A stretch of DNA of 64,000 nucleotides from Opitutaceae bacterium (GTDB lineage Bacteria; Verrucomicrobiota; Verrucomicrobiia; Opitutales; Opitutaceae): assembly GCA_030693515.1 (NCBI GenBank), contig JAUYAK010000022.1:60345-124344 (forward strand), in the 5' to 3' direction. The position numbers and the translations under genes are program-made. This document shows positions 27,858-40,964 of the stretch, piece after piece. Under the pieces are notes generated by a model. That model did not search any database. It was not told where the DNA came from and saw only the letters and a program-made list of their open reading frames with translations. The stretch's first letter is position 1. Every line of letters starts with the position of its first letter.

Positions 27858-28406
27858 ATGCCACCCCACACGGATCAGGCGAAATGGTTTGCCGCTGAAG
27901 TCCATCCCCACGATGCGCAGCTGAAGGCGTATCTGCGCGGCGCGTTTCCCACTGTGCGCGACGTGGACGACGTGGTGCAGGAGTCGTATTTACGCATGTG
28001 GCGCGTGCGCGCCGAAGGGCCCATCCGTTCCGCGCGGGCCTTCCTGTTCACCGTTGCGCGGCGGCTGGCGATAGACGGGGCGCGGCGCTCCATCGCCTCG
28101 CCCATCGATGTGGTGGAGGATTTGGCCGGACTGCCTGTGGCCGATGAGACGGCGGATGTCGCGGGAGAAACGGAGAACCGCGAGCGCGTGGCGCTGCTCG
28201 CTGAGGCGATCGGTCGGCTGCCGAACCGCTGCCGCGAGGTTTTTCTCCTCCACAAGATCCATAGCCTTTCGCGCCGCGAAACGGCGGAGCGTCTTGGGCT
28301 CGCCGAGAAAACCGTCGAGGTCCAAACCGCGCGGGCGATGGATCGTTGTGGTGAGTATTTGCGGCGGCGTGGCGTTACGGGGCTTTTTTCCGATGAGCGC
28401 GCCTGA
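27858..28406 (+). CDS. ECF sigma factor (FecI-like), cassette 1
   Basis: LKAYLRGAFPTVRDVDDVVQESYLRMW; ARAFLFTVARRLAID; LPNRCREVFLLHKIHSLSRRETAERLGLAEKTVE. Confidence 0.88.
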   Translation: MPPHTDQAKWFAAEVHPHDAQLKAYLRGAFPTVRDVDDVVQESYLRMWRVRAEGPIRSARAFLFTVARRLAIDGARRSIASPIDVVEDLAGLPVADETADVAGETENRERVALLAEAIGRLPNRCREVFLLHKIHSLSRRETAERLGLAEKTVEVQTARAMDRCGEYLRRRGVTGLFSDERA

Positions 28407-29268
28407 CCAGCAACCGGAGAACACCCGTGCCGCGGAGGAGGCGCTGCGCTGGATGCGTGGCGCGCAGGCCGAGGCGGCGCTGGTGGCGGAGGTGGGCCGG
28501 GCTGTGCGGGTCCGGCGGCGGCGTTTAACCAGGCTGGCTGGCGCGATCGCGGTGGCGATGGGACTCGGGCTTTTCGTTGGCCTAAACCGGGACCCGGGGG
28601 CGCCAGGCGCCCCGACGGCCATCGTCACCGAACCGCGTCGCCAGATTTTGCCGGACGGATCGGTTGTGGTCCTGCGCGACGGGGCGGAGATTGCGGCCGA
28701 TTTCTCGCCGCTGGCGCGGCGTGTGGCGCTGCGGCGGGGGGAAGCGCACTTCGATGTGGTGAAGGATCGGGCGCGGCCTTTTGTCGTGACGGCCCAGGGG
28801 GTGGAGGTGCGGGCGGTGGGCACGGCATTCTCCGTCGGTCTGGGCGGAGGCGCCGCCGTGGAGGTGCTGGTGACGCATGGGCGCGTGGCGGTGGAGCCCG
28901 AGGCCAAGGCTGCGGCGCTCGTCGATGCGGGGCAGCGCGCCCTCGTGCCTTCGGCCGGGGCGGCGGCCGAGGTGAGTGTGCTTTCCGCCGCGGAAATGGC
29001 CGAGGCATCCGCTTGGCGCGTCCCGCAGATCGAGTTTTCCCGCACGCCGCTCACGGAGGCGGTTGCCCTGATCAACGCTCGCCTCACCACCGCGGGCCAG
29101 CGCCGCATCGTCGCCGATTCGGCGGACGCGGGGCTGCGCGAGCTGCGTTTGAGCGGCTATCTGGCGGCCGACAACACCGAGGGTTTCCTGCTGCTGCTCG
29201 AGAGCAACTTTGGCATCCGCGCTGATCGCGGCGGGAACGGAGCGATTGTCCTGCGTTCGCAGCGCTGA
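28393..29268 (+). CDS. FecR-family anti-sigma regulator, cassette 1
   Basis: RRQILPDGSVVVLRDGAEIAADFSPLARRVALRRGEAHFDVVKDRARPFVVTAQGVEVRAVGTAFSV typical FecR core; C-terminal STN/DUF4974-like segment. Confidence 0.88.
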   Translation: MSAPDQQPENTRAAEEALRWMRGAQAEAALVAEVGRAVRVRRRRLTRLAGAIAVAMGLGLFVGLNRDPGAPGAPTAIVTEPRRQILPDGSVVVLRDGAEIAADFSPLARRVALRRGEAHFDVVKDRARPFVVTAQGVEVRAVGTAFSVGLGGGAAVEVLVTHGRVAVEPEAKAAALVDAGQRALVPSAGAAAEVSVLSAAEMAEASAWRVPQIEFSRTPLTEAVALINARLTTAGQRRIVADSADAGLRELRLSGYLAADNTEGFLLLLESNFGIRADRGGNGAIVLRSQR

Positions 29269-29332: not shown

Positions 29333-32300
29333 ATGCCCCCGTCGATTCGACCCGGCGCTCCTTGGCGCTGGGCGTTTACCCTGCTTGTGGCTGGCTTGTG
29401 CGCCTCGGTGCTGTCGGCGGCGGTCCCGCTGCGGCGGAATTTTGACCTGCCGGCGGGCCGGGCGGAGCCGGCGCTTAAGCGCCTCTCGCAGCAGGCCGGG
29501 GTGCAGCTGGTGTTTGACAGTCGGCTCGTCGACGACGTGACCGTCAATGCGGTGCGGGGTGAATTCACGCCCTTGGAGGCGGCGCAGCGGCTGCTGGCCG
29601 GCACGGTGCTGCGGGCCCGGCGCGACGAACAAAGCGGCATCCTCAGCGTGGAGCGGGAGCCGACGCCACCATCCGAAAAAAAAGCCCCGGCGCGCGCTGA
29701 TTCTCCGCCGGCCACGCGCGCCGCGACCGAGGCCGGTAATCTTTCGCCCGAACCCAACCAACCCCCCAACCCCTCGCCCATGAAATCCCCCCGCACCCTG
29801 CTTGCCGCCTTGGCCGGCTGGCTTGCCACATCGAGCGCCGCCGTGGCCCAGACGACACCCCCCGCTGCTCCGGCTAGAGACGACTTGGTCCAGTTGTCGC
29901 CCTTCGAGGTGGCTTCGGACAAGGACAACGGCTACGCCGCGAGCGGCACCCTGGCCGGCACGCGTTTGCGCACCGAACTGCGCGATGTCGCTGCCTCGAT
30001 CTCCGTCGTGACGAAGCAATTTATGGATGACATCGGCGCGACCAAACTTGATGACCTCCTGACTTACACCCTCGGCACCGAGGCGGCCGGCTTGGGCGGC
30101 AACTTCAGCAACCACGGTTTGGACGGCAACTTCACCGACGTCATTTCCGGCCTGCGCGGCGCGCAAGGGGCGACGCGCGTCCGCGGCATCGGCAGCGCGG
30201 ACCAAACGCGCGACTTCTTCATCACGAGCACGGCGATGGACGGCTACAACACCGAGCGCGTCGAAATCAACCGCGGCCCCAATGCCATCCTCTTCGGCCT
30301 CGGCAACGCCGCCGGCATCATCAACACCGGCCTCATCAAGGCGCAGACCAACCAAACCAAGACCAAGGTGGACGCCCAATACGGACAGCACGAGACACAC
30401 CGCCTCTCCCTCGACCACAACCAGGTCCTGATCAAGGATCGCCTGGCCCTGCGCATCGCGACGCTCTACGGCGACAAACGCTATCAACTCAAGCCGGCCT
30501 ATGTTCGCGACGAGCGAGTCTTTGCGACCGCCACCGCGCGGCCCTGGAAGGGCGCCGCGCTCCGGGCCAACGTCGAACATGCGAAGCAGTTTTCCAACAA
30601 AGCCTACAACTCCACGCCCACCGACAACATCACCTGGTGGTGGGCGCTCGGAAAACCAGTCTACGATCCCACCACCGGCGTGGCGACCTACTTGGGGACG
30701 ATGCCCTCGGATCCCAACCTCCGGCCGATCACGGCCACGGGTGGCTTGAACACTGGCCTCATCGCCGGATTCTCGCAGAAGCCGCTCTTGATTCAGGAGA
30801 ATCCGGACGTCACGCGTTTCGGTATCACCGGCCTGAGTCCCTCTGTTCAGGCGATCGAAGGCTTCAACAATCGCGTCCGCCTGAACGCCGCCGGCAACGC
30901 CTATGTGAATGACGGCCTGCGGATGCTCCAGTCTTCCAAGAACTATGTCCAACGCCTCTATCAGTCGAGCAGCCCGGCTTCTTTCAACTTCTGGAAGGAC
31001 GAGAAGCTGACCGATCCCTCGATCTTCAACTTCTACGATCAGATGCTCGAGGGCCCCAACAAACGGGAATGGGCGTTCTTCAAATCCTACAATGCCAGCT
31101 TTGAGCAGCGCCTCGGTGCGAATGCCGGCGTCGAGGTCTCGTTCTTCAAGGAGTCGTTGCGCAACGGCCACGTTCAGCCCTTTCAATTTCGTAATCACGC
31201 CATCAACATCGATATCAACACCAAGTTGCCGAACGGACTCCCGAACCCGAACCTGGGTCGCCCCTTCATCACCTCGGCCGACGGCTTTGACAATTCCCCT
31301 GAATCCGAGCGCGAAGCGTTCCGGGCGACGGCCTACTACGATCTCAATTTCGCTCGCACCAAGAAGGACGGCTGGCTGTGGAAAGCGCTCGGCCGGCATG
31401 TCTTCACCGGTTCGTTCACGAACCAGAAGGCGGAGAGCGCCAGCTATGGCGGGCGCAATCATGCCCTCGGGCTCGACTACTGGAACGCGGAGTCGGTCAA
31501 TGAACCCAGGACGATTGCGTTGGATAGCGGCAACCGGTTCCTCCAGCGGACTTCCTACATCGGGCCCAGCCTGCTCACCGCGGCCAGCCCCCAGAACGGC
31601 GGCCTCCGGGGCGTCACCGCCAACAACAGCCTCGATGGAGCGAACAGCGTCAACGTGCTCTATTTTCAAGCACCCGCCGCCACTCCGGTGTCCCAGGCCC
31701 AGATACCGCAGTTTCAGAACCGCTCTTTCAGCCTCATTCCGAAGGACAAATATAATTTCAGCAACGTCACGATTTTCCCCAATCGGAGCGCCGACAAGGT
31801 CGAGTCGTCCGTCTTCGTCGCCAACAGCTACTGGTGGGACAACACCCTAGTGAGCACGCTCGGCTGGCGCAAGGACGCCTTCAAGACCTTCACGGCCCCC
31901 GCGTCCCTCACCGATCCCGCCACGGGGCTGAAGATCGTCGATAAGAGCGTTTGGAAATGGACCGCTCCGGCGCTCGATAGCTCCGAGTCGTCTTTCTCCT
32001 ACGGCCTGGTGTTGCACCAGCCGTCGTTTCTCCGGGGCAAGCTGCCGCTGGGCGCCGACGTGTCGCTGACCTACAACGTGTCCGACAACTTCCGGCCAAG
32101 CTCGCCGCGCTTTGATTTCTTCGGCAATCCGATCGCGGCGCCGACCGGATCAACCAAGGAATGGGGTGCGCTGATCTCGTTGTTCAACCGGAAGCTCGAG
32201 CTGCGTTTCACCAAGTATGAGACCATCGCGTCGCTCGCCACCGCCACGGCCCTGCGCGAGCCGCAAAACGTGATTGTGCGCCGCCTTGATTCCCAAATCG

Positions 32301-33139
32301 AACTCAATTCCGATCCCGTTTATCGGGCCGCGGCTTCGCCGGCGGCCCTCGCCGCGTGGAATACGTGGCAGCAGGGCGCGGACGCGCAGCGGCTCTTCAA
32401 GACCTTCGACTTCCGCTTCTCTCCGGGACCGAACGGCACGACGATCGTCGATCGCGACGACCGGATCGGCACCGTGGTGGGCACCACCGACATCGTCGGC
32501 ACGGGCTACGAATTCGACGTCACTTACAATCCCCTCCGGCAATGGCGCATCTCCTTCAACGCCGCCCGCCAGGACGCGGTCTCAGGCAACACCGGCGCCG
32601 CGTTTGTGCGGATGCTCGCTGCGCTTCAGCCGATCTGGGGCGGCTCCGCTGCTGCGCTTCCGGACTCGGCGACCTCTGGCAATACCCTCGGCCAGGCCTT
32701 TGCTCAAGTGAAGGCCGACGTGGACAAGGCCGTGCTGCTGGACGGATCGCCTTCGCCCGAGCTGCGCCGTTGGCGATTCAACGCCGTCACCAACTACTCG
32801 TTCACCGAGGGACGGCTCAAAGGCTGGCGCGTCGGCGGCTCCGTGCGCTGGCAGGATCGCGCGGCGATCGGCTACCCGGTGAGAATCCTGCCCGATGGCT
32901 CCGGCGTGTTTGACGTCACGAAACCCTACTTCGGTCCCAAGGAGACCAACGTCGACGGTTGGATCGGCTACAGCCGCAAGCTGACCGACAAAATCCGCTG
33001 GAGCGCGCAGCTCAACGTGCGCAACATCGGCGTCGGCAACCGTCTGATCCCGGTGAACGCCCAGCCCGACGGCACCTACAACACGATGCGAATCGCCGAG
33101 CCGCAGACTTGGCTGCTCACGAACTCGTTTGAGTTCTAA
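29333..33139 (+). CDS. TonB-dependent receptor with N-terminal STN domain, cassette 1; in-frame internal start with a second signal peptide at 29780
   Basis: STN-like FDLPAGRAEPALKRLSQQAGVQLVFDSRLVDDVTVNAVRGEFTPLEAAQRLLAGT; plug VVTKQFMDDIGATKLDDLL, VEINRGPNAILFGLGNAAGIINT; C-terminal ...WLLTNSFEF beta-strand ending in F. Confidence 0.88.
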   Translation: MPPSIRPGAPWRWAFTLLVAGLCASVLSAAVPLRRNFDLPAGRAEPALKRLSQQAGVQLVFDSRLVDDVTVNAVRGEFTPLEAAQRLLAGTVLRARRDEQSGILSVEREPTPPSEKKAPARADSPPATRAATEAGNLSPEPNQPPNPSPMKSPRTLLAALAGWLATSSAAVAQTTPPAAPARDDLVQLSPFEVASDKDNGYAASGTLAGTRLRTELRDVAASISVVTKQFMDDIGATKLDDLLTYTLGTEAAGLGGNFSNHGLDGNFTDVISGLRGAQGATRVRGIGSADQTRDFFITSTAMDGYNTERVEINRGPNAILFGLGNAAGIINTGLIKAQTNQTKTKVDAQYGQHETHRLSLDHNQVLIKDRLALRIATLYGDKRYQLKPAYVRDERVFATATARPWKGAALRANVEHAKQFSNKAYNSTPTDNITWWWALGKPVYDPTTGVATYLGTMPSDPNLRPITATGGLNTGLIAGFSQKPLLIQENPDVTRFGITGLSPSVQAIEGFNNRVRLNAAGNAYVNDGLRMLQSSKNYVQRLYQSSSPASFNFWKDEKLTDPSIFNFYDQMLEGPNKREWAFFKSYNASFEQRLGANAGVEVSFFKESLRNGHVQPFQFRNHAINIDINTKLPNGLPNPNLGRPFITSADGFDNSPESEREAFRATAYYDLNFARTKKDGWLWKALGRHVFTGSFTNQKAESASYGGRNHALGLDYWNAESVNEPRTIALDSGNRFLQRTSYIGPSLLTAASPQNGGLRGVTANNSLDGANSVNVLYFQAPAATPVSQAQIPQFQNRSFSLIPKDKYNFSNVTIFPNRSADKVESSVFVANSYWWDNTLVSTLGWRKDAFKTFTAPASLTDPATGLKIVDKSVWKWTAPALDSSESSFSYGLVLHQPSFLRGKLPLGADVSLTYNVSDNFRPSSPRFDFFGNPIAAPTGSTKEWGALISLFNRKLELRFTKYETIASLATATALREPQNVIVRRLDSQIELNSDPVYRAAASPAALAAWNTWQQGADAQRLFKTFDFRFSPGPNGTTIVDRDDRIGTVVGTTDIVGTGYEFDVTYNPLRQWRISFNAARQDAVSGNTGAAFVRMLAALQPIWGGSAAALPDSATSGNTLGQAFAQVKADVDKAVLLDGSPSPELRRWRFNAVTNYSFTEGRLKGWRVGGSVRWQDRAAIGYPVRILPDGSGVFDVTKPYFGPKETNVDGWIGYSRKLTDKIRWSAQLNVRNIGVGNRLIPVNAQPDGTYNTMRIAEPQTWLLTNSFEF

Positions 33140-36524: not shown

Positions 36525-39218
36525 ATGCGCGCGACGATAACCCATTTCGTCCGCCGCCTCGTCTCAGGAGCGCTCCCACTGCTCTTGTTGATGAACCCCC
36601 TTATCCCCACCGGTGCGGTCGCGGTCGCGACCGTCTGTTGTTTGGCCGGCGCCACCGCGTCCGTCCAAGCCGGTGAAGCCGCGCGCAAACGCTTCGACAT
36701 CGCGCGCGGGGATGCGGCCGGCACGCTGAAACGTTTCGCCGAAGAATCGGGTCAACAGGTGGTCTATCTGGTCGATGCCGTCCGCGGCATCACGACCAAC
36801 CCAGTGCGGGGCGATTACACCGTGCGGGAGGCGCTGCGTCGCCTCGTCGCCGATACCGGACTGGTCGTCGTGGAGGACGTGAAGTCGGGGGCTTTGCTGG
36901 TGAACCGTCTCGTTCCCGAGGCGCCGCCGCCAAAACCCAACCCACCGACCACCATGCTCGTCCCCATGAAAAAATCCCTGCCTGCCCGTCTCACCGCCTT
37001 TTTTGCCGCTCTCGCCGCGTCTTCGCTCGCCGCCCAAACGACCCCGGCTGAATCCGAAACGATCAAGCTCTCCCCCTTCGAGGTCAGCACCAGCCAGGAC
37101 CGCGGCTATCGCGCCAGCAACTCCATCGGCGGCACCCGCGTGAACACCCCGCTGAAGGAAGTGCCGATGAACATCCAGGTCGTCACCGAGGAGTTCATGC
37201 GCGACATCGCGGCGTTCGATGCCTCGGAGTCGTTGAAGTTTCAGGCCGGCGTGGAGGTCGGCTCGCGCGACGGCGACCGCGACACCGCCGTGACCATCCG
37301 CGGCTTCGGCACGACGTGGCAGATGCGCGAGGGCTTCCGCCGCTACGACACCTCCGACAGCATCAACATCGCGCGCCAGGAGGTCGTCGCCGGGCCCGCC
37401 GCCGTGCTCTACGGCATCAGCCAGCCGGGCGGCATCATCAACTACATCACCAAGCGCCCCACGCGCGGCACCGGCGTCGAGCTGCGCCAGGTCGTCGGCT
37501 CAGATGGCCTGTTCCGCTCGGAGGTCGATGTGAATTACGCGCCCGCGGGCCCCCTCGCGCTCCGCCTCCTCGGGGCGCACACCAAGGCGGATGGTTTCCG
37601 GGATTATGAGCGCGTGAAGCGCACGTTTGTCGCGCCCATCGCCGTTTACCGCCTCGATGCGGCCACCACCTTCACGGTCGATATCGAATACATGAAGCAG
37701 GACCGCGGCTTCACCCATAACAAGCTGCGAGACGTCTCGCTCACCGCGACCGGCGGCACCGTCAACCTCCCGAGCTTCCTCAGTGTTCCGCGCGAGCAGC
37801 AATGGACCGGCCCCGACACCGTCCATACGAACGACGTGACCAACCTGCTCTTCGTCGCCGACCATAAGTTCTCGGAAAATTTCTCGGTCAACGCCGCGTT
37901 CAATTCGCTCGAACGCACCCAGCAGCGCACGACCCAGACCCACCGCGGCCTCGCGCTCGCCGCCCTGCGTGATCGCAACGGCGCGCTCGTCCTCGATGCC
38001 AACGGCGCCCCGATCAAGGCGCTCCGCACCCTCTGGGCCAGTGACAACAATCAGAATTGGATGTGGCAGGCGCGCGTGGACGGGGTGTTGAAATTTGATG
38101 TCGCCCAAGTCCCGCAGACCCTGCTCACCGGCTTCAATTTTGCGAAGGACACCAACTACCGCATCCTCTTCGAGGACCGGAATCCGGACCTGCGCAACGG
38201 CGTGGACAACCTCGCCCAAAATTTCCGCTACTACACCGTCGGCACGCGCCGCCCCAATCTCCGCATCGGCAATGCCGACTACAATCCCGTGAACTGGGCG
38301 CGCCCTCAGCTCCACTACCGCGATCCGATCGAGCTCACTTCCTACTACGCGAACCATCAGGCCAAACTCCTCGGCGATTCGCTCTTCACGCTCGCGGGCA
38401 TTCGCTTCGATAAAAACGACTATTCGCGCAAGTGGCAGACGCGCCGCACCGGCCAGAACGATGTCGTCAACTCCGTCACCGACAAGTGGAGCCCCAACTA
38501 CGGTCTCCTCTACCGCCCGATCCCGTGGGTCTCCGTGTATGCGCTCAGTTCCGAATCGCTCGAGCCGCGCAACGGCTCGACCAACAGCTTCGGCGTCAAC
38601 CTCACGCCCTCGTTTGGCAAGAGCATCGAGGCCGGCCTGAAACTCGAGGCGTTCGACGGGCGCGTGTCGGCGACCTTCAGCGCCTACCGCATCAAAAACA
38701 AAAACCTCCCCGTCACCGATCCCACGATCCCGAATGCCAACGGCGGCCTCGGCGACGTGATCCAAGTCGGCGAGCAGACCTCCGAAGGCTACGACTTCAC
38801 CGCGTTTTTCTTTCCGGTGAAGGACTGGCAGATCACCGGCGGCTGGTCCTACGTGGACACGTTTATCAGCAGCGACACGAACCGCGCGAACCTCGGCCGC
38901 AATTTCTCCAACCTGCCCTACAACCGCTTCACGCTGTTCACCAGCTATCGTCTGCCCGGCGGCTGGACGATCGGCGGCGGCGCGCTCCACACGGGCGAGA
39001 TCGACCGCGGGTGGAACGACCCGATCACGAATCTTCCCGTGCAAAACGACCGCTACACGACCTTCGACGCCTTCGCGCGCTACGAGTTCAAGCTGTCCGC
39101 CAACCACCGCTGCGCGCTGTCGCTCAACGTGCTGAACTTCTCCGACCAACAGGATCGCGGCGGCGGCGAGTGGATCGTCGGCCGCACCTACCGGCTCACC
39201 GCGGGCGTGCGGTTTTGA
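36525..39218 (+). CDS. TonB-dependent receptor with N-terminal STN domain, cassette 2; in-frame internal start with a second signal peptide at 36966
   Basis: STN-like FDIARGDAAGTLKRFAEESGQQVVYLVDAVRGITTNPVRGDYTVREALRRLVADT; plug VVTEEFMRDIAAFDASESLKF, VVAGPAAVLYGISQPGGIINYITK; C-terminal YRLTAGVRF. Confidence 0.9.
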   Translation: MRATITHFVRRLVSGALPLLLLMNPLIPTGAVAVATVCCLAGATASVQAGEAARKRFDIARGDAAGTLKRFAEESGQQVVYLVDAVRGITTNPVRGDYTVREALRRLVADTGLVVVEDVKSGALLVNRLVPEAPPPKPNPPTTMLVPMKKSLPARLTAFFAALAASSLAAQTTPAESETIKLSPFEVSTSQDRGYRASNSIGGTRVNTPLKEVPMNIQVVTEEFMRDIAAFDASESLKFQAGVEVGSRDGDRDTAVTIRGFGTTWQMREGFRRYDTSDSINIARQEVVAGPAAVLYGISQPGGIINYITKRPTRGTGVELRQVVGSDGLFRSEVDVNYAPAGPLALRLLGAHTKADGFRDYERVKRTFVAPIAVYRLDAATTFTVDIEYMKQDRGFTHNKLRDVSLTATGGTVNLPSFLSVPREQQWTGPDTVHTNDVTNLLFVADHKFSENFSVNAAFNSLERTQQRTTQTHRGLALAALRDRNGALVLDANGAPIKALRTLWASDNNQNWMWQARVDGVLKFDVAQVPQTLLTGFNFAKDTNYRILFEDRNPDLRNGVDNLAQNFRYYTVGTRRPNLRIGNADYNPVNWARPQLHYRDPIELTSYYANHQAKLLGDSLFTLAGIRFDKNDYSRKWQTRRTGQNDVVNSVTDKWSPNYGLLYRPIPWVSVYALSSESLEPRNGSTNSFGVNLTPSFGKSIEAGLKLEAFDGRVSATFSAYRIKNKNLPVTDPTIPNANGGLGDVIQVGEQTSEGYDFTAFFFPVKDWQITGGWSYVDTFISSDTNRANLGRNFSNLPYNRFTLFTSYRLPGGWTIGGGALHTGEIDRGWNDPITNLPVQNDRYTTFDAFARYEFKLSANHRCALSLNVLNFSDQQDRGGGEWIVGRTYRLTAGVRF

Positions 39219-39401: not shown

Positions 39402-40964
39402 TCAGCGGGGGAGTTGAGCGAAGCGCTGGGGCGTGAACTCGTGGGCGGTGTGATTGGTGGCGGCGGCCAGGCGGGGCAGGGCCCAGGTGAGGTAGCTCCA
39501 TTCGTTGAGACCGAGGAGCTTGCAGGTGCCAAGAATCGAATAGAGGACGGCGGAACGCCAACCGGCGTCGGGATGGCCGATGAAGAGATAATTTTTTTTG
39601 CCGACTGCGCAGACGCGGATGGCGTTCTCGACGGCGTTGGAATCGATGTGCACATGCCCGTGATCGGGCTCGGCGAAGCGCGTCAATTCCGGCCAGCGTT
39701 GGAGGGCATAGTGGACGGCCTTGGCCAGTGCACTGTGCGGCAGGATCGCCGGATCGACGGCCGCTTTCATCAGGGCTTGGTGCATCGGCACGAGCCAGGC
39801 GGTCGAGCGGGTGCCGCGCGTCGCAGCCCGGAGTTGCGGGGTGGCGTCGCGCAGTTCCGCTTCGATGCGGTAGAGGGCGCCGAGATAAGCCAGAAACGGC
39901 GCGGCCCGTTCGTCGCCGGCTTCGAGGGCCTCGACAAACCCGCGGCGGCCATGCGCCAGGCAATTGGCGTGGACAATCTGTTGGCGTCGGTCGGCGGGCA
40001 ACAACCGCAGCGCCTTGAGGTAGCCGGCGTAGCCATCGCTCTGGAACACGCCGGCAAACTGGCGCAGGAACGCGAGCGCCGGCTCATGACTGCGCGTCAG
40101 TTGAAAGTCGAAGACCACGACCTTGGCCCCCGGCGCCAGGAACGTCCACAGCCACGCTTCCCGCGCGGCCCCGGGCCGGGCCGGATCCAACACCCGGATC
40201 GGCGTCTCATCGCCGATGGCATAGGCGCTCTGCTGCACCGCTCTTTGCAGTTGGGCATACACCGGCCGAAACAAATTGGCCGCGTGCTCGACCCACTGGC
40301 CCATGGCCTGGCGGGTAAACGCCGGCCCGAGGCGCTCGAGCATTGCCTCCTGGCGATAAAGCGGGATCGCATCGACATACTTCGAGAGCACGACGTGGGC
40401 GATCAGGCCAGGACCGACCTGGCCGCCGGGGATCACGCGCGCCGGCAAGTCCGCCACCTGCGGTGCGCAGCCATGCGCGGGGCTGGCATATACCGGCCGG
40501 ATGATCTGACGGCGGAACAATTTGCCAGGCTGATAATCGACCTCGTCGGTGATCTCCTCCCTGATCTTGACCAGCGGCGTGCCATCCGGGGCGAGCTTGG
40601 CGGCGGCGGGCAGATCGAGCGTGATGGTCTCAAGGACGGGCAGATCCTCCAGGCGCTGGGCGCGGCGCACCGAGGGCGCCCGCGGGCCGCGCGCCACCGG
40701 CGGTGGCGCCGGTGGCGGTGGCGGCACGCTCGCCTGGTCGGCCACGACCGACTCCCAGGCCAGCGCGAGCTGGTTGGGATCGATTTTCTCCGACGAGCGC
40801 CCGAAGTAGCGCTTGAGCAGGGCCTGCAGTTTGGCCTTCGCCGCGTCGCGCTCCAAGGCGGTCTGCTCCAGCAAGCCCCGCGTCGCGGCATGGGCTGCGC
40901 GCTCCGCCCGCAGGAGCTTTTGCAGCTCAGCGGGATTGGCGGGCAGGACCTCGTTCATATCCAT
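39402..40964 (-). CDS. tnpC: IS66-family transposase TnpC
   Basis: KRYFGRSSEKIDPNQLAL; ADLPARVIPGGQVGPGLIAHVVLSKYVDAIPLYRQEAMLERLG; CLAHGRRGFVEAL; DSNAVENAIRVCAVGKKNYLFIGHPDAGWRSAVLYSIL. Confidence 0.95.
   Translation of the reverse strand: MDMNEVLPANPAELQKLLRAERAAHAATRGLLEQTALERDAAKAKLQALLKRYFGRSSEKIDPNQLALAWESVVADQASVPPPPPAPPPVARGPRAPSVRRAQRLEDLPVLETITLDLPAAAKLAPDGTPLVKIREEITDEVDYQPGKLFRRQIIRPVYASPAHGCAPQVADLPARVIPGGQVGPGLIAHVVLSKYVDAIPLYRQEAMLERLGPAFTRQAMGQWVEHAANLFRPVYAQLQRAVQQSAYAIGDETPIRVLDPARPGAAREAWLWTFLAPGAKVVVFDFQLTRSHEPALAFLRQFAGVFQSDGYAGYLKALRLLPADRRQQIVHANCLAHGRRGFVEALEAGDERAAPFLAYLGALYRIEAELRDATPQLRAATRGTRSTAWLVPMHQALMKAAVDPAILPHSALAKAVHYALQRWPELTRFAEPDHGHVHIDSNAVENAIRVCAVGKKNYLFIGHPDAGWRSAVLYSILGTCKLLGLNEWSYLTWALPRLAAATNHTAHEFTPQRFAQLPR

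Follow-up and report, generated by a model that had tools for sequence, protein, structure and literature searches.

An embedded start codon with its own signal peptide recurs in STN-type TonB-dependent receptor genes of Opitutaceae

TonB-dependent transducers of the FecA/FpvA/FoxA type carry an STN signalling domain ahead of the TonB box, plug and barrel, have a single signal peptide placed before the STN domain, and are encoded beside genes for an ECF sigma factor and a FecR anti-sigma factor, which usually accompany an STN receptor. It is an open question whether such a transducer signals with its signalling domain still tethered to the outer-membrane receptor or after the domain has been released, and a study of FoxA proposes cleavage of the domain, which in its free state would protect the anti-sigma factor (PMC11637429). 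In-frame embedded genes, in which a shorter protein is made from an internal start, are described for mycobacteriophage Ms6 lysA (PMC3111421) and SpaO (PMC13059759). Poly-A slippage yields two needed length variants of tssM (PMC4256274) and is also known from insertion sequences (PMC1088944).

We analyzed a window of 64,000 nucleotides (the whole stretch of DNA considered here) from a 6.6-Mb draft genome of 130 contigs, assigned to an Opitutaceae bacterium, with MAGs carrying the names Opitutaceae, Opitutus or Lacunisphaera as relatives. The window encodes an STN receptor, receptor 1, that is a FecA-type transducer by its domains and gene neighbors, with putative signalling through FecR to the sigma factor. 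The features of this locus, and of a second one with the same layout, are listed below; G014 is a related genome.

27858..28406, + strand: ECF sigma factor gene, the STN receptor's partner (Pfam Sigma70_r2 and r4_2; 82% amino-acid identity to the copy upstream of the G014 STN receptor)
28393..29268, + strand: FecR anti-sigma factor gene, overlapping the sigma gene (Pfam FecR, E 1.6e-13; 69% identity to the G014 copy)
29333..33139, + strand: long form, SP1-STN-linker-SP2-TonB-dependent receptor, 1268 aa (open frame)
29333..29422, + strand: signal peptide 1 (SP1), MPPSIRPGAPWRWAFTLLVAGLCASVLSAA, recognized from its basic start, hydrophobic core and SAA end
29432..29656, + strand: STN signalling domain (family profile, E 8.1e-30)
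29657..29779, + strand: Pro-rich linker, its last 30 nt G-poor and unstructured
29676..29683, + strand: A8 run within the linker; with one A removed, the STN frame stops at TGA 29781
29780..29782, + strand: internal ATG, codon 150 (Met150), overlapped by TGA 29781-29783 in another frame
29780..29848, + strand: signal peptide 2 (SP2), MKSPRTLLAALAGWLATSSAAVA, with a predicted cut before Q, recognized from sequence and homologous to the N-terminus of the STN-less orthologues L053 and L054
29780..33139, + strand: putative short form, an STN-less receptor; orthologues of 93% and 83% identity consist of only this part
29978..30319, + strand: plug domain, residues 216-329 (Pfam Plug, E 7.6e-10)
36525..39218, + strand: second STN receptor of the window, with an SP1-STN-linker-Met-SP2 layout like that of receptor 1 and an internal ATG at 36966

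A sequence-only reading of this DNA had described SP1, an STN domain, a Pro-rich linker and a second signal peptide at codon 150 within one open reading frame, and the open frame, a family STN profile and Pfam Plug confirmed this organization. The receptor 1 copy of STN fell below the threshold of the Pfam STN model; the family profile also hits the signalling domains of FpvA, PupB, HasR, FoxA and FecA in the PDB. The barrel of receptor 1 was not called by Pfam, yet this full-length protein shows homology to receptors from end to end. In receptor 2, a further in-frame ATG lies at 36954, ahead of the internal ATG, and an ORF resembling an IS66-type transposase adjoins the gene (39402-40964, minus strand; a sequence impression).

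Receptor 1 thus resembles FecA, FpvA and FoxA in domain order and gene neighborhood but, unlike them, carries between the STN domain and the TonB box a second signal peptide that is complete and has a start codon of its own. As in the FoxA proposal, the signalling domain could become separated from the receptor; there a periplasmic protease acts on one protein, whereas here the separation lies in gene structure in split relatives described below and, possibly, in a second start. As with Ms6 lysA and SpaO, one frame would give two proteins, the shorter from a putative internal start, but at this locus the inner start is a product of gene fusion and comes with an export signal of its own. With tssM and the insertion sequences the locus shares an A-run near a stop codon and the possibility of two length variants; it differs in the placement of the run, between two domains, and in a downstream part that is equipped with its own start, and slippage here is putative. 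We found no description of a second signal peptide with its own start in an STN receptor in the literature searched, with most subscription journals outside reach.

Distribution of the second-start layout

The STN profile was built mainly from the window's genome and matched 25 of 27 genomes searched in the genus and 83 of 120 in the family. We examined about 160 stretches; the genus and family sample comprised 225 distinct STN loci. As signal peptides we counted hydrophobic segments with a basic n-region, a criterion applied in place of a trained predictor. At 107 of the 225 loci the STN domain is continuous in frame with a receptor that has retained SP2; at seven others the SP2 receptor lies in another frame, so that STN and receptor are two genes; and at about half of the loci STN is fused through a short linker without SP2. 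This last fraction led us to reject the idea that SP2 is a universal part of STN receptors. All three arrangements occur together even in a single genome, where 23 STN loci were read as 13 SP2 fusions, 9 fusions without SP2 and 1 split. In a class sample of 189 genomes, matches to the STN profile at E <= 1e-10 came exclusively from the same family; one receptor of the SP2 layout (L084) belongs to another family of the order.

The second-start layout is real and recurrent. Its recurrence excludes a chance hydrophobic stretch combined with a chance Met, as does the position of the Met, which in 87 of 91 cases precedes the hydrophobic core by 3-10 codons. In the comparison of homologues that the sequence-only reading had proposed, those of the SP2 type do not lack both the Met and the hydrophobic segment; both are missing from a second group of STN receptors, which have short linkers and a different layout. 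In the split relatives, the receptor can be translated solely from the SP2 start, and the STN stop codon falls within 8 nt of the receptor start in six of the seven. The in-frame fusion predominates overwhelmingly (107 loci versus 7 split ones), and the long protein is therefore under selection.

Several observations made during the survey concern individual loci. By eye, several SP2 receptors (L012, L020, L111, L119) have a carboxypeptidase-regulatory-like segment between SP2 and the plug. Downstream of the stand-alone STN gene at L162 (G025:C143, minus strand) lies no receptor gene but one with a twin-arginine-like motif (RRQFL) at its start. The linker motif GEVGPVSDPQPKP recurs in L014, L106, L112, L177 and L180, in which STN cassettes are joined to different receptors.

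The inner start codon and its nucleotide context

A start codon is kept at SP2 in 104 of the 107 in-frame SP2 fusions (94 ATG, 9 GTG and 1 TTG; three have none), and 101 of these 104 codons lie no more than 14 codons from the SP2 core, the other three lying more than 14 codons before it. Where the site encodes Val, the codon is GTG nine times and GTC once, whereas receptor bodies use GTC more commonly; GTG and TTG at this site are hard to explain except as starts. ATG was retained in 16 of 16 independent pairs that share both STN and receptor, for each of which we infer shared descent of the fusion, while identity fell to 0.48 in the linker and 0.67 in SP2. The probability of 16/16 retention by chance is about 1e-5 at the loss rate of linker residues and about 2e-3 at that of SP2 residues.

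The C-rich context that the earlier reading had pointed out at 29780, which is followed by MKSPRTLLAALAGWLATSSAAVAQ, is real and specific to the site: among the eight in-frame ATGs inside the ORF, only this one is unstructured, with an MFE of 0.0 kcal/mol over 41 nt compared to -2.9 to -14.4 for the others. Across loci, the G content of positions -30 to -1 was 11.6% at inner starts, 12.2% at the starts of stand-alone receptors (a comparison set of 12 genes) and 33.5% in linkers without SP2, and the dip in structure was alike at inner and stand-alone receptor starts (-0.9 and -1.2 kcal/mol). Counting against initiation, a Shine-Dalgarno motif was absent at the inner starts, though it was likewise absent at the stand-alone receptor starts (0/12, 1/102). 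Codon choice around the inner start was also skewed. Pro codons ending in G accounted for 52 of 299 near the inner start and 133 of 319 far from it (p 3e-11), Ala codons ending in G for 4 of 80 near and 112 of 303 far (p 1e-9), and Lys at codons 2-6 after the inner start was encoded by AAA 99 times and AAG 26 times, versus 278:680 in receptor bodies (p 3e-27). The synonymous bias persisted in the subset of genes with a shared fusion (p 1e-7). A signature visible in synonymous choices is unexplained by constraint at the protein level. In three genes that have lost the start (L182, L254 and L073), the RNA at this place is structured, with MFEs of -22.9, -18.3 and -9.9, and the signature is gone. 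The DNA around inner starts thus looks like a working initiation site, resembling the starts of stand-alone receptors, and the earlier suggestion that the internal ATG is active gains comparative and nucleotide-level support, to the extent that dual initiation in these fused genes is likely.

Origin of the fusion and the retained start

The closest orthologues of receptor 1 (93%, 83% and 65% identity) have no STN domain and take SP2 as their N-terminus. At the nucleotide level, homology to the nearest of them (89%) starts at 29779, one base ahead of the ATG. The more distant relative G014 (62-64%) contains the whole sigma-FecR-STN-SP2-receptor series, and there the cassette is closer to that of the window than the receptor is, with identities of 82% for sigma, 69% for FecR, 79% for SP1 plus STN and 89% for the STN domain alone. 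The STN-less orthologues and the point at which homology begins strongly support the fusion origin that the earlier reading raised as one of two options, here in the form of a graft that placed a sigma-FecR-STN cassette ahead of a receptor gene already complete. The accompanying proposal that the linker is a former 5' UTR fared less well, as the linker is weakly similar to the 5' UTR of one relative (local-alignment p = 0.006) and no such similarity appeared with two other relatives. That the window gene gained STN, as opposed to its relatives having lost it, is suggested by the many STN-less neighbors on a plug tree, and the window's own fusion looks young.

Among SP2 loci, the identity of the STN domains says almost nothing about that of the receptors (r = 0.11, 5356 pairs), and receptors that are 94% alike can carry STNs that are 44% alike. 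A plug tree of 168 receptors requires at least 18 changes of STN presence (36 with shuffled labels) and at least 39 changes of SP2 status (55 shuffled). With cassette and receptor identities uncoupled and both states labile on the tree, repeated exchange of signalling cassettes onto complete receptor genes is the simplest reading.

For receptor 1 and its SP2-type relatives, the data show a fusion, its recurrence, and a start codon conserved together with initiation-type DNA. The full account, in which the cassette was grafted in frame, the receptor's own start codon and signal peptide were retained, and this inner start still works and gives a short form beside the long one, is in our view moderately probable. 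From 29333, the fused gene specifies a FecA-like transducer, and the embedded start at 29780 most likely still yields a putative STN-less receptor with its own signal peptide. Both proteins would presumably reach the outer membrane, where the ratio of long to short form may set signalling against plain uptake; as to export of the long form with its internal hydrophobic segment, an approximate scale rates SP2 as a weak membrane anchor. The conserved codon and its signature are traces of selection, as opposed to measurements of translation, a young fusion would inherit all the features of a start, and a secreted protein might tolerate an internal re-export signal on other grounds. If grafting recurs so often that fusions are mostly young, the second signal peptide, together with its start codon and the unstructured upstream DNA, could be a useless leftover in genes that make only the long form. 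The window fusion is either younger than the split from its 93% identical STN-less orthologue or recently exchanged, the plug tree shows many changes of STN and SP2 status, and the linker's weak likeness to one 5' UTR points the same way. We nevertheless consider this explanation rather unlikely, as the start codon was kept in all 16 pairs while linkers diverged to 48% identity, and the synonymous signature persists in shared-fusion genes and is gone in start-lost ones. Full ATG retention in the pairs and the structured RNA of the start-lost genes, a small class (n = 3), argue against inheritance as the whole story.

It is also conceivable, but quite improbable, that only the long form is made and that SP2 serves as an internal signal-peptidase site, which would free a periplasmic STN domain and leave a mature receptor. 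SP2 does retain the shape of a signal peptide, but under Sec topology its orientation after export by SP1 would be wrong for a normal one. The proposal that FoxA sheds its signalling domain (PMC11637429) is in keeping with such processing; processing would require no start codon, unstructured upstream DNA or AAA bias, yet all of these are conserved.

A-runs, split genes and regulation of the receptor

Runs of at least eight A (A8-A10) occur 13 times in 10.6 kb of SP2-type linkers versus 0 times in 183 kb of receptor coding DNA, in a count that ignores shared descent, and A8-A10 runs are present in five of the seven split genes. Twelve A-run genes have a scored start, and each of them has a frame in which the STN stop falls at +1 of the SP2 start. 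The overlap of stop and start produced by deleting one A from the window linker (TGA 29781 on ATG 29780) occurs naturally in L164 and L166, and a one-base slip in the A-run would convert a fused gene into a split one.

A change of frame in the A-run, by transcriptional slippage or by mutation, could therefore switch a locus between a fused transducer and a separate STN protein plus a receptor re-initiated at the overlapping ATGA. We treat this switch as a lead and judge it unlikely on present evidence. The enrichment of runs in SP2-type linkers, their presence in most split genes and the uniform stop position in the 12 scored genes argue for it, and an A11 run acts in this way in tssM of Citrobacter (PMC4256274). 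On the other side, just 13 of about 115 linkers carry a run of eight or more, some of them related by descent; A8 is possibly too short for efficient slippage; and homopolymer errors in draft assemblies could imitate split genes. An arbitrary one-base deletion, moreover, gives the ATGA overlap in 84 of 100 SP2 linkers. The overlap is cheap because ATGA comes with a Met-Lys start, which leaves the enrichment of runs as the real observation. Slippage is compatible with initiation at both starts, and both may operate together. An extension of this idea, which we advance tentatively and also think unlikely, is that the family's STN-receptor loci are switchable two-protein modules, in which A-run length or slippage together with start choice would give either a tethered transducer or a free STN protein and a plain receptor re-initiated at ATGA. 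If that is true, the gene itself would encode the separation of the signalling domain from the receptor.

The module exists in fused, split and putatively dual-start in-frame versions, side by side even within one genome, which makes the question of tethered versus released signalling testable by comparison; split and dual-start loci would separate the signalling domain through gene structure. Standard annotation picks one start, so a second protein may be hidden at many loci. For the bacteria that carry these genes, grafting of a cassette would bring existing receptors under new regulation without loss of the original gene, and, if the inner start works, a signalling receptor and a plain one may come from a single gene.
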